From NCBI RefSeq assembly GCF_016865255.1, contig NZ_CP033381.1, forward strand, positions 2,666,001-2,730,000: 64,000 nucleotides of DNA, read 5' to 3'. Below the pieces are notes generated by a model that was not told the origin of the DNA, searched no databases, and worked only from the letters and a program-made list of their open reading frames with translations. How positions within the stretch are numbered: position 1 is the stretch's first letter; every line of letters begins with the position of its first letter. The position numbers were made by a program, and so were the translations under genes. Shown in pieces: positions 44,118-64,000 of this stretch. The DNA comes from Methylomonas sp. LW13 (GTDB lineage Bacteria > Pseudomonadota > Gammaproteobacteria > Methylococcales > Methylomonadaceae).

Positions 44118-44163
44118 TGGTAGCGGGGGCAGGATTTGAACCTACGACCTTCGGGTTATGAGC
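44118..44163 (-). tRNA. 3' fragment of an initiator tRNA (fMet) gene: attachment site core
   Basis: Read on the minus strand the segment goes from GCTCATAACCCGAAGG through a T-arm GGTTCAAATCC to the CCA end. From memory it matches the 3' half of bacterial tRNA-fMet, starting one base before the anticodon loop (CTCATAA). The 5' half is absent: sequence upstream of GCTCATAA does not pair as a tRNA. This is the remnant left when an element integrates into the 3' part of a tRNA gene. The complete gene should be at the other end, to the right of 64000. Confidence 0.9.
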
Positions 44164-44280
44164 GCCAACCAATAACAGGCGAACACATCGGGACACGCTG
44201 AAACGTCCTATGGATCAAGAGGATAACAGAAATTGCCCGAAGGTCAAGCGTGTTTCGATGCGTTTGGTTTGTGTCTGAAT

Positions 44281-44300
44281 GTGCCCTAATATGTGCCCTG
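44281..44300 (+). other. Left pair of integrase arm-type sites
   Basis: Two direct copies of GTGCCCT at 44281 and 44293 (12 bases apart, the first followed by AA, the second by G). The same pair with the same spacing occurs at 63933-63952 near the other end. Such paired repeats near both att sites are typical arm-binding sites of lambda-type integrases. Confidence 0.7.
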
Positions 44301-44341
44301 CCTTGCGCCCTCGGGCAAAAAAACCGATGGTCTATAGTGCC

Positions 44342-44376
44342 AAAAAAAGCCGCCTGCATTACTGCCAGGCGGCTTT
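44342..44376 (-). terminator. Terminator of the structural gene operon
   Basis: On the minus strand AGCCGCCTG-loop-CAGGCGGCT (perfect 9-bp stem) is followed by seven T residues, 22 bases after the tape-measure stop. Confidence 0.9.
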
Positions 44377-44397
44377 TGATCCGGCTAACCGATCAAG

Positions 44398-46047
44398 TTA
44401 CGGCATGCCTAGATACATAGCATGGGTAAACCCATAGCCCACATCCACATTCGACCGAACCGGCCCACGGGTTTTACTCGGAGCCACTCGCATCGTTGCG
44501 GGTGAATTGTCGAACCGGACATTGACGTCAACCCCGCCTTTCACCGATCCAACAATATTTTTTTGGTAGCCCGGTGCCCGCATGCCTTCGCCGCTGGGTA
44601 ATTGAACCCCCGAGAAATCAGGCAACAACGAGGCAACCGATTTACCCAAGAACATGGGCACGCTGCCAACCAGTTTTAACAGTGGATCGTTCGAAACCCA
44701 GTTACCGATATATTTGAACATATCGATTAGCGGCTGGAAAAAATCCTTGATCCTGCTGAATCCTTCCTTAAGCCGGTTGACGATGCTATCCCAGTTATCA
44801 ATGATCAACGGTGCCGCGACGATGGCCGCTTGTGCCAGCAACATCAGTGGGTTTAACTTCATGGCCGCCGTTATTGCGCCGATACCGCCAGCCAAACCCC
44901 AGGCCGCAACTTTCAAGCCGACAAAGGCGCCGGCCATCTTCGCCGCTGTCATCACCGCCGGCCCATTTTGATCAATAAAGCCGGTGAGATTTTCCGATAT
45001 ACGGTTGACGGAGTCGGCAGCCGCTTTAAGTTCCGGCGCGTACTGGCTGCCGAATTTCGCCATGAAATTTGACCAGGTGCCGCCGGCTGTCTCCACCTTG
45101 TTAGTGAGCGTGCCGGCGGAGTTGGCGATTTTGTCCAGCAGACTGCCTTGGTTGGCCATCGCCTGCACTTGCCGGTTATAGCTTTCCAGGGTGATCAGCG
45201 CGGCTTTGCTGGCGTGCTCCTTGCCGAACAGGTTTTCCAATTTCGTAAAGCGTAGCTTGCTCGGTAGGTGGTTTATTTTGTCCAGGTCGGCAATCAGCTT
45301 TGGAATGCCGGAGAATTTATTCAGCTTGGTGGCCTGGTTGATAATCTCACGAATGCCGGTACCGGCCTCTTCACCTGAAATACCCGTGCTGGTAAAGACC
45401 GAGACCAACGGCAGCATTTGGTTTGCCGCCTTTAGGCCTTCTTCACCAGCGACTTTCAACGGGCCAGAGACACGGGACATAGCATATTGCAATTCATCCA
45501 GCTTGGTGCCGTTGAACAACACCCTTTGGATAGAATCGGCAAACGGCACCATATCACTGTCGGCAATGTTAAACGCCCGGCTGAGCTTACCCATTGATTC
45601 CGCCGCACTGTCATAAGTCACATAGATGTCTTTGCCAACGACGCCAAGGTATGCAGTGGCCCTCAATACGCCATTGGCAATAGAGTCCGCATTCACGCCA
45701 AAGGCTTTTAGTGTTGACGACATCGCGTTAAAGTCGGCTGTTGTTCCGGGTAACTGAGTTCCCAGCTTTATCGCTTCCTCGCTGATTTTCTGGAATACCG
45801 CCGGGATATTCCCGTTCTTATCCATCAAGGTGTTTTGCAGGTAGACTGCGGAATTCTCTAAATCTATAAACGCTTTGGCTGGTACCGCCATCGACGCGAC
45901 AAAACCGGCGCCAAGCATCGGCGCACCATTGCCGACAGTTCTTAATTGTCTATGCAATATGTTTAGGTTTTTGGTGATTTGCTTCAAGCCTGGCGACATA
46001 CGGTCAACCATACTTATCACGGCTTTTAAATCGAAGTCTTTTGACAT
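44398..46047 (-). CDS. Phage tail tape-measure protein
   Basis: 549 residues. The N-terminal part has the typical tape-measure start (LKAVISMVDRMSPGLKQITK) and the TP901-type domain with TTADFNAMSSTLKAFGV and ATAYLGVVGKDIYVTYDSAA. A hydrophobic core near residues 345-400 (AAKMAGAFVGLKVAAWGLAG, AAMKLNPLMLLAQAAIVAAP) is typical of this family. It sets tail length and helps DNA ejection. AGGAG lies seven bases before the ATG. It is the last gene of the operon and the only tail gene seen. A 549-residue ruler predicts a tail near 80 nm by the usual 0.15 nm per residue. Confidence 0.9.
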   Translation of the reverse strand: MSKDFDLKAVISMVDRMSPGLKQITKNLNILHRQLRTVGNGAPMLGAGFVASMAVPAKAFIDLENSAVYLQNTLMDKNGNIPAVFQKISEEAIKLGTQLPGTTADFNAMSSTLKAFGVNADSIANGVLRATAYLGVVGKDIYVTYDSAAESMGKLSRAFNIADSDMVPFADSIQRVLFNGTKLDELQYAMSRVSGPLKVAGEEGLKAANQMLPLVSVFTSTGISGEEAGTGIREIINQATKLNKFSGIPKLIADLDKINHLPSKLRFTKLENLFGKEHASKAALITLESYNRQVQAMANQGSLLDKIANSAGTLTNKVETAGGTWSNFMAKFGSQYAPELKAAADSVNRISENLTGFIDQNGPAVMTAAKMAGAFVGLKVAAWGLAGGIGAITAAMKLNPLMLLAQAAIVAAPLIIDNWDSIVNRLKEGFSRIKDFFQPLIDMFKYIGNWVSNDPLLKLVGSVPMFLGKSVASLLPDFSGVQLPSGEGMRAPGYQKNIVGSVKGGVDVNVRFDNSPATMRVAPSKTRGPVRSNVDVGYGFTHAMYLGMP

Positions 46048-62975: not shown

Positions 62976-63517
62976 TAGGCGGGCCTCTCGTCGCTGAAAG
63001 CTGCCGAAAATTGCGGCAAAGCGTAGTCTCTCAGGTCGAGTGATAACGCAAGCTGCCGCAATGTTTCCGGATCAGAGTCTACCGGTAACGATTCAAGCAA
63101 TCGCTCATATACGTCTCGGCCCCGTGACAGGGAATAAAGTATGCCTTTTCGTGGATCGTCATCACCCTCGCCAACATAAAAACAGCGCAGATCTTGAAGG
63201 CAATACCCTGTCAGGCCAAAAACGTTGCCAAAGCGCCGCGCCTCACCCTCTGTGGGAAAGCCGGGAGAGGCCAACAAATGATTGTCAGGATGATGAACAG
63301 TCCAAAGTCGAATGACTGGGTGGTCGTAGGCGCCGCATGTCGTGCACTGCACGCTGCCGCCGTCGGGAAAATACGGATAAACCTCAGCAGGCAAGAAAAA
63401 CCCTTCAGGATCACCGCATGAAGGACAATGCGCAAACCGGTCAAATAGAAAATAATCTGAAATGACACAAGTAACGACCGGACCCGCGTTGTGTTGACTT
63501 TTAGGAATAGTGGTCAT
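62975..63517 (-). CDS. Zinc-ribbon hypothetical protein before the integrase
   Basis: 180 residues. A Cys4 zinc-ribbon-like motif (HCPSCGDPEG and QCTTCGAYD) in the first third; the rest is mixed alpha/beta. Not recognised. One base after the gene before it and overlapping the integrase start by one base, hence part of the same operon. Confidence 0.68.
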   Translation of the reverse strand: MTTIPKSQHNAGPVVTCVISDYFLFDRFAHCPSCGDPEGFFLPAEVYPYFPDGGSVQCTTCGAYDHPVIRLWTVHHPDNHLLASPGFPTEGEARRFGNVFGLTGYCLQDLRCFYVGEGDDDPRKGILYSLSRGRDVYERLLESLPVDSDPETLRQLALSLDLRDYALPQFSAAFSDERPA

Positions 63518-63518
63518 G

Positions 63519-63875
63519 TCATTCCACCCCGCGGCCAGTTAACGGCTCCACGGCCTGTGGAAACCTATCGAAGACCAAGTGGCTGCTTTCCGAATAATTG
63601 CAGCCAACATCCTCAGCCAAACAATTGATGGTGTTCTGTGCATCAACGGCAATTGAGTGTATTGCCTGGAGCGCATTACGTAAAAGGCGTGGGTTGGTAT
63701 GAAATTTTGTACTTTCAGACGCGCAAATAAGCAAGTCTGAAATTAATTCGATTAAATCAAACGCTTCTTGCGAAGTTTGATCGATTTGAGTGATTGTTTG
63801 TTTGAACGTTTGGACATCAGCACCAGGTTCTGGTCGTGATGTTGATGGGGTTTGTTTTGAATTTATTGCGGACAT
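63519..63875 (-). CDS. Small hypothetical protein, first gene of the integrase operon
   Basis: 118 residues with GAGGG eight bases before the ATG. Helical (EAFDLIELISDLLICASEST, LLRNALQAIHSIAVDAQNTI). Not recognised. It heads the leftward operon 63875-61447; its promoter should lie in 63876-64000. Confidence 0.68.
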   Translation of the reverse strand: MSAINSKQTPSTSRPEPGADVQTFKQTITQIDQTSQEAFDLIELISDLLICASESTKFHTNPRLLRNALQAIHSIAVDAQNTINCLAEDVGCNYSESSHLVFDRFPQAVEPLTGRGVE

Positions 63876-63898
63876 AAAAAAAGCCCTCGATGTAACAC

Positions 63899-63952
63899 AG
63901 GTTCTCTAGAACCTTTTTGAAAAAATCCACATGTGCCCTAAACGGTGCCCTG
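63899..63952. other. Right-end control region: hairpin and right arm-type site pair
   Basis: AGGTTC-TCTA-GAACCT (63899-63914) is a short inverted repeat that could be an operator of the integrase operon. At 63933 and 63945 lie two direct GTGCCCT copies, with the same 12-base spacing and the same following bases (AA, then G) as the pair at 44281-44300. The intact attachment site should be a short distance to the right. Confidence 0.65.
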
Positions 63953-64000
63953 TGGCGTTTTTTTCAACGTGTTAAACCGATGGCTTTATGATTCTTATCC

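Follow-up and report, generated by a model that had tools for sequence, protein, structure and literature searches.

Gene content and borders of the element

The stretch of DNA analysed here (hereafter, the window) comprises 64,000 nucleotides of the Methylomonas sp. LW13 contig NZ_CP033381.1 (positions 2,666,001 to 2,730,000), and its distal part harbours an integrated element encoding a phage capsid, a prohead protease and a tape measure protein (TMP) together with integrase and replication genes. The element is bounded by two identical 48-bp direct repeats forming an att pair (44116-44163 and 64019-64066), of which the integrase-side copy lies beyond the window, within an intact tRNA-Met(CAT) gene (64021-64097). 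An empty site was identified in G025, a genome of the same species, where the flanks that stand 20 kb apart in the window genome are joined over a single att copy. The element is a genuine, exactly delimited integrated unit with a total length of 19,951 bp. An initial annotation had placed it at 44118..64000, a start that falls 2 bp from the true end (44116) and a right-hand limit that stops short of the true one (64066), which lies 66 bp past the window. Subtracting a Tn3-family transposon and one copy of its target duplication leaves, by arithmetic, 13,710 bp, close to the 13.6 kb initially estimated without the Tn3; the copy found in genome G014 measures 13,321 bp. Gene families were called with Pfam and PHROGs profiles, and the main features are as follows.

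44116..44163, minus strand: distal-end att repeat, 48 bp, corresponding to the 3' half of tRNA-Met
44398..46047, minus strand: TMP, 549 aa (PHROG 28 3e-55; PF10145 6e-18)
46065..46382, minus strand: small protein just upstream of the TMP, 105 aa; possible TMP partner or assembly factor
52837..53334, minus strand: coiled-coil protein (hereafter, the coil protein), 165 aa; candidate scaffold or capsid-size factor
53397..54743, minus strand: HK97-fold major capsid protein, 448 aa, with a hydrophobic N-terminal leader (PF05065 2e-27; PHROG 10 5e-35)
54770..55555, minus strand: ClpP-type prohead protease, about 261 aa (PHROG 133 2e-74; PF00574 8.5e-32)
56299..58533, minus strand: PrimPol-helicase, 744 aa (Pfam Prim-Pol 1.7e-38, PriCT_2 4.9e-17, DUF5906 1.6e-8)
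61902..62975, minus strand: tyrosine integrase, 357 aa (PF00589 7.1e-33)

All satellite genes proper are on the minus strand and, in the order of transcription, comprise two unknown genes, the integrase, an unknown gene, a Gp49/HigB-type toxin with its antitoxin, a HigA-type gene, a variable unknown gene, an 83-aa and a 61-aa gene, the PrimPol-helicase, a small open reading frame (ORF), the ClpP-type protease, the capsid, the coil protein, the Tn3 insertion, the 105-aa protein and the TMP. The probable start of the protease is 55555 (Met 43 of a 303-aa ORF) and not 55681. Family models recovered the integrase, toxin-antitoxin cluster, PrimPol-helicase, ClpP-type protease, HK97 capsid and TMP announced in the initial annotation, but matched none of the proteins to the excisionase it had listed, for which an 83-aa protein (58779-59030) is our own candidate. 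The single gene direction it described holds for the satellite genes; the plus-strand genes at 47018-48209 sit in the Tn3 and not in the satellite proper, as does a helix-turn-helix (HTH) gene (48625-49059).

The missing virion genes were searched for among 205 ORFs of at least 30 aa in 44116-64000, using Pfam, PHROGs and phmmer (E up to 0.1) with chosen structural proteins of SfV, Mu, lambda, HK97, P2 and a prophage of genome G031. The reference structural proteins matched the capsid, protease and TMP only, and two satellite-derived phmmer queries matched the coil protein and the small gene. No portal, terminase, connector, tube, sheath or baseplate was found among these ORFs, as had been proposed from the start for the terminase, portal and tail shaft. 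A sub-cut-off line for the Sf6 small terminase TerS (E 0.0087) fell on an antitoxin ORF, where an antitoxin model scores 8e-20. An integrase, a replication gene and att repeats thus occur without a full set of virion genes, the combination by which phage satellites are generally recognised.

Conserved copies and selection

Of the 37 genomes in the genus, six contain the capsid; the same element type occurs in four of these six, namely the window genome (G000), G014, G020 and G021, the last three having Tn3-free copies. The block that the initial annotation had proposed to seek elsewhere without the transposon is thus present in G014 and G020, with the same layout at the same tRNA-Met, and in G021 with another tail gene and no TMP. 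Both att copies are present in G014 and G021. Genome G020 carries two copies (G020a and G020b): the first occupies the same tRNA-Met locus, its distal att being unrecognisable (best 31/48), and the second is split over two contigs. DNA identity among copies of the same architecture is about 88-96%. In G021 the small gene and the TMP are absent, and a lambda gpI-like tail-tip gene (4e-10) and a second, inverted toxin-antitoxin pair are found instead between the coil gene and att (G021:C1, about 526671-528250), the gpI stretch having 66% DNA identity to the G031 prophage. Since this segment carries gpI and toxin-antitoxin genes in place of the small gene and TMP, it is a likely exchange point.

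The ratio of nonsynonymous to synonymous substitution (dN/dS, omega) was determined for window genes against same-type copies. Values were 0.15-0.20 for the capsid, 0.14-0.43 for the protease (42 upstream codons counted in), 0.04-0.13 for the coil protein, 0.16-0.17 for the small protein, 0.09-0.17 for the TMP, 0.10-0.11 for PrimPol and 0.04-0.07 for the integrase. Purifying selection acts on the structural genes (those for the capsid, protease, coil protein, small protein and TMP) and, together with the conserved Tn3-free copies, argues against a decayed prophage. The signal is less clear for a 180-aa gene at 62975 (0.10-0.31), and a 118-aa gene at 63519 (0.5-1.2) has too few changes for a selection test.

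Origin of the capsid block

A capsid search across 301 genomes of the order revealed eight places in seven genomes: six satellites (one each in G000, G014, G021 and G008, and two in G020), a further one in G242 and one full prophage in G031, whose capsid (45% identity) is accompanied by an HK97-type protease and no coil protein. In IMG/VR, 287 capsid relatives were found and the loci of the best 80 examined. A portal or large terminase (TerL) gene lies nearby in 69 of these, and in the remaining 11 no more than 1.1 kb separates the capsid from the upstream end of the contig. A strong ClpP-type protease match occurs at seven of the 80 loci, with weak matches (7e-7 or worse) at 24 others; capsids of the phage ClpP-capsid pairs have about 44-48% identity to the satellite capsid and are never found with the coil protein. 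The same block within a full prophage, named in the initial annotation as the mark of a deletion product, was encountered neither at the eight capsid places of the order nor at the 80 IMG/VR loci.

The coil gene follows the capsid gene in every satellite of the capsid clade (G000, G014, G020 (2), G021, G008 and G242). It was found at none of the 80 best IMG/VR capsid loci, has no relative in IMG/VR and, in a search of 369 genomes of the class, was retrieved from G000 only, with three additional weak matches (7e-6 to 7e-4). An AlphaFold2 (AF2) model predicts two long helices (2-44 and 48-119; pLDDT 88.1, pTM 0.48).

In a tree of 89 capsids (long-branch warning for L002 and L196), the seven satellite capsids form a single clade (100/100) with a long stem, which spans three integration settings. 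Its neighbour group consists of eight IMG/VR phage capsids (92/91, not starred), including all seven strong-ClpP loci; the eighth, L182, begins 250 bp from a contig end. The gene order in one full phage, L140, is TerL, portal, ClpP, capsid. Because the satellite capsids form one clade beside strong-ClpP phage capsids, where the coil protein is absent, the most likely origin is a single transfer of the ClpP-capsid pair from an HK97-type phage; the pair would then have evolved inside satellites, where the coil protein joined it. Two capsid relatives at 30-31% identity from a scan of genome contigs were set aside.

With a 17-residue hydropathy window, a hydrophobic, signal-like leader was detected in all seven satellite capsids, the full phage of G031 and a capsid of another branch in G197, but in only 8 of 81 capsids from IMG/VR and in none of five reference capsids. 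Such a leader on capsid precursors suggests that capsid assembly may be membrane-linked and start at the membrane.

The tape measure protein and its possible small partner

The full-length TMP belongs to the SfV/Mu contractile-tail type and aligns to SfV-type TMPs across 97% of its length with 28-29% identity. By TMP, the nearest full phage in the order is an SfV-like prophage in G240 (36% identity), with sheath, tube, chaperone and baseplate genes around the TMP gene. Satellites and G240 are grouped in the TMP tree (98/99; long-branch warning for L209), in which support of 61/25 does not resolve a single satellite origin of the TMPs; two further weak matches were found in G258 and G069 (3e-5 to 4e-5). 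The initial annotation had envisaged a satellite that remodels the tail length of its helper. At 549 aa, the satellite TMP is similar in length to that of G240 (532 aa) and somewhat shorter than that of SfV (611 aa), lengths that do not single it out, and the shorter-tail reading was not retained. By analogy with the phage-inducible chromosomal island-like elements (PLEs) of Vibrio cholerae, replacement of the TMP itself is the better reading than a change in tail length.

The small gene is paired with the TMP in G014, G020, G003 and G084 and on short contigs of G035 and G269. The AF2 model of the 105-aa protein is alpha/beta (pLDDT 84.8), with no fold match at E <= 0.001 and no sequence family match. 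Upstream of the small gene and TMP, a predicted coiled-coil-like protein of 243-253 aa was observed in G084 (L067:14533-15261) and G269 (L071:4959-5717), two loci with no capsid. Its homology with the coil protein of the capsid block was not supported (hhalign E 0.18).

Capsid and tail blocks in other satellites

Each of the two blocks also occurs alone. An element of G008, beside tRNA-Leu(CAA), carries the ClpP, capsid (65%) and coil (50%) genes with no TMP, and one near tRNA-Ser in G242, which belongs to another genus, has the capsid and coil genes with no recognised TMP. Conversely, the small gene and TMP (43-47% identity) are found with no capsid in G003, beside tRNA-Leu(CAA), and G084, beside tRNA-Met, and on contigs of 5.4 and 8.3 kb in G035 and G269. 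The PHROG 28 model identified 16 places in 11 of the 37 genus genomes, of which nine lie in Mu-like prophages with a sheath gene, six in elements without one and one on the short G035 contig.

A second element was identified in the window's genome, outside the window and beside tRNA-Leu(CAA) (G000:C1, about 2122649-2136000; L065, L066). It has an other-branch TMP-type gene (598 aa) and no other recognised virion gene, the best tblastn matches being 41-43% over about 60% to phages such as Wolbachia phage WO and AcaML1. A small gene directly before it was named by eye as excisionase/AlpA-like, and a primase-like gene is present too. A wider integrase search listed 38 places, of which 20 were looked at (15 newly fetched and five already seen). 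The newly fetched loci comprise the 5' part of the second G020 copy, two loci with a capsid-type gene (G197, and G261 as fragments) and 12 loci, several of them cut by contig ends, with no match to reference virion proteins. In G197 (integrase 54%), an other-branch HK97-type capsid (PF05065 1.3e-59) is the sole recognised virion gene.

Capsid and TMP blocks are apparently exchangeable cassettes. These elements might even belong, as a tentative proposal that we hold to be possible without favouring it, to a modular satellite family in which one integration-replication chassis receives exchangeable virion cartridges, retuning it to different helpers, and carries no portal, motor or tail. The capsid cartridge would consist of the capsid, the coil protein and usually ClpP, and the tail cartridge of the small gene with either the TMP or a lambda-type gpI, either or both being present.

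Remaining genes and the Tn3 insertion

The remaining features of the window element are listed below.

46590..52825, strand not assigned: Tn3-family transposon with cargo, not satellite proper; terminal inverted repeats and 5-bp target duplication GACTG
55880..56215, minus strand: small ORF between primase and protease; matches in G014, G020a and G020b, and a short one in G021; no family match (Pfam, PHROGs)
58520..58705, minus strand: small cysteine-containing protein, 61 aa; 79-82% identity in G014, G020a and G021; no family match (PHROGs)
58779..59030, minus strand: 83-aa protein kept with this integrase family; excisionase candidate; no Pfam or PHROGs family match
59308..60372, minus strand: variable 354-aa protein; 97% identity in G014, 26-28% in G020a and G021; no Pfam or PHROGs family match
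60470..60769, minus strand: HigA-type antitoxin/HTH protein (PHROG 1381 1.9e-21; HTH_3)
60766..61158, minus strand: antitoxin, HI1420 type (PF21716 7.7e-20; PHROG 4268 8.8e-27)
61073..61402, minus strand: Gp49/HigB-type toxin (PF05973 4.2e-7; PHROG 3445 1.3e-33)
61447..61899, minus strand: 150-aa protein, open frame; no match in four related copies and no family match (Pfam, PHROGs)
62975..63517, minus strand: 180-aa protein kept with the integrase; 96-99% identity in G014, G020a and G021
63519..63875, minus strand: 118-aa protein; 94-97% identity in copies

Homologues of the 83-aa gene lie close to the integrase in 10 of the 15 newly fetched integrase loci and in G084, and homologues of the 180-aa protein also occur in G084 and G261. 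The gene at 59308 is swapped for a distant version in G020a and G021. The Tn3, absent from G014, adds 6.2 kb between the coil gene and the small gene. A plasmid of Methylomonas sp. DH-1 matches its transposase and resolvase region at 92% identity. The cargo includes an HTH protein (47018-47515) and two unknown genes, and an 83-aa ORF at the left end of the transposon (46623-46874) duplicates the C-terminal part of the transposase.

A satellite that probably makes chimeric particles

We consider it likely that the element is an integrative satellite making chimeric particles, which brings its own capsid kit (capsid, ClpP-type protease and coil protein) and a TMP with a small partner, and relies on a helper phage for the portal, terminase, connectors, tail tube, sheath and baseplate. 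A capsid without a portal needs a foreign portal and motor, and a TMP without tube or baseplate could presumably act only with the tail of another phage. Upon infection by a helper or its induction, the element would excise and replicate by means of its PrimPol-helicase. A small shell would be built from its capsid protein, perhaps starting at the helper portal, with the coil protein shaping it and the satellite protease maturing it, and the helper terminase would fill it; helper tail proteins would then polymerise on the satellite TMP to form a chimeric tail like those of the V. cholerae PLEs. For a 13.7-kb element with its own capsid, protease and coil protein, the remodelling of head size is plausible. 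Judging from the TMP family, the helper would be a phage with an SfV/Mu-type contractile tail; for G021, the gpI-like gene suggests one with a lambda-type tail tip.

Several observations weigh against this scenario. No helper was found: the HK97-type portal (PF04860) occurs in one of the 37 genus genomes (G031; Mu-type portals were not part of this search) and in none of the five genomes carrying capsid satellites, so that the helper may be virulent, unsampled or equipped with a Mu-type portal. A sheath-family gene (PF04984) is present in 24 of the 37 genus genomes, including G000. IMG/VR contains no relative of the TMP or coil block except three distant phage TMPs, so that no sequence derived from particles of this satellite came to light. 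The small gene received no support as a tail assembly chaperone from PHROGs, the fold search or the AF2 model, the G242 capsid and coil genes have no recognised protease, and the PrimPol of G021 is broken into two overlapping frames. As the Tn3 adds 6.2 kb and splits the coil gene from the TMP, the 20-kb window copy may be stuck and its spread blocked. Regarding the sheath family, the domain in G000 (C1:4655318-4655791) lies in a 737-residue open frame, frames of similar length (729-745) being found in many other genus genomes; this frame possibly belongs to a contractile system other than a phage tail.

Other explanations were also weighed. Remodelling might be restricted to the capsid, the satellite protein being mixed with the helper capsid protein in a small mosaic shell, as for Ccm of SaPIbov5, an HK97-fold capsid homologue that, according to the accessible part of PMC8569155, assembles together with the helper's own capsid and portal proteins. 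This precedent, the lack of portal, terminase and connectors and the sole other-branch capsid of G197 all fit, but the window element keeps its own protease, a long N-terminal region and the coil protein, whereas Ccm is described in that part of PMC8569155 as the only particle protein of SaPIbov5 itself, a helper protease being assumed. As an own protease and coil protein would favour an own shell over a mosaic, we regard the restriction to the capsid as rather doubtful. Capsid and TMP could also be decoys that poison the assembly of incoming phages, in an interference or defence island that is itself unpackaged. The absence of a portal, a terminase and an identified helper would be expected, as would partnerless structural genes in relatives, such as the capsid of G197 and the TMP-type gene of the second G000 element; satellite and prophage proteins inhibiting tail assembly are published, although those described in the accessible part of PMC11364771 are dedicated inhibitors and not TMP homologues. 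Yet a dedicated protease and coil protein are kept with the capsid under purifying selection, the integrase and PrimPol-helicase are intact, the att site is conserved with an empty site in kin, and the PLE TMP is incorporated and required for transfer (accessible part of PMC12987554). A purely defensive role is thus improbable, even if defence and chimeric particles are not mutually exclusive.

The order of ClpP and capsid, the same as in full phages such as L140, could suggest a prophage remnant that lost its terminase, portal and tail genes, and does indicate that such a phage was the original source of the block. However, the same architecture is maintained in several genomes at about 88-96% DNA identity with low omega, the capsids form a satellite-only clade with a long stem and three integration settings, and the coil protein is absent from the 80 phage relatives. 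A deletion product is therefore very improbable, and the preference of the initial annotation for a satellite is borne out by the conserved Tn3-free copies, the low omega values and the satellite-specific capsid clade. If chimeric particles are indeed made, satellites can replace the head shell and the tail ruler at once, leaving portal and terminase to the helper, and head and tail replacement are separate, exchangeable modules. The copies of G014 (TMP) and G021 (gpI), near-identical otherwise, would allow the control of helper choice by tail genes to be tested directly.

Comparison with known satellites and phages

What appears new here is the combination of capsid and TMP without portal or terminase, together with apparently interchangeable cassettes. 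Literature searches, which mostly did not extend to preprints and subscription papers, returned no report of a satellite with this combination, nor of satellites in this host group. Like the window element (PF05065 2e-27), capsid-forming phage-inducible chromosomal islands (cf-PICIs) have their own major capsid protein; their capsids are used with helper tails. They carry their own portal and terminase genes, in contrast to the window element, where neither was found among the 205 ORFs. PICIs and phage-inducible chromosomal minimalist islands (PICMIs) differ by their AlpA-type regulator, for which no match was obtained among the scanned proteins of the window element (Pfam E <= 0.1; PHROGs). 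SfV-type temperate phages share the TMP family and an HK97-type capsid, but are full phages with HK97-like head genes, a Mu-like tail, a terminase, a portal and a complete contractile tail.

SaPIbov5-type satellites have their own small terminase for cos packaging, unlike the window element, in which none matched above the cut-off. SaPIbov5 resembles the latter in having a capsid homologue without a portal or TerL. It differs in that no satellite protease, coil protein or TMP is reported for it in the accessible part of PMC8569155.

The closest parallel for the tail is provided by the V. cholerae PLEs. As described in the accessible part of PMC12987554, published in March 2026 on TMP-encoding satellites (PLEs and some cf-PICIs), PLE11, PLE1 and PLE4 encode a TMP and a tail assembly chaperone and form chimeric tails, in which the PLE TMP replaces that of the helper in otherwise helper-made contractile tails. 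Deletion of tmp lowers transduction, PLE tails are about 10 nm shorter for a TMP difference of 95 aa, and putative tmp genes are presented for PLE-like elements and a sampling of cf-PICIs (Extended Data Fig. 10). Like the PLEs, for which this part of the report mentions no full tail set, the window element encodes a TMP. It differs in having its own capsid and protease, PLE capsids being described there as modified, with the ICP1 capsid protein detected in blots. A small gene adjoins the TMP here too, in the position where the PLEs have an HK97-TAC-like chaperone next to tmp, but no similarity to a chaperone was recognised in it. If the element does make chimeric particles, the chimeric-tail finding made in 2026 for the PLEs would be extended to other bacteria.

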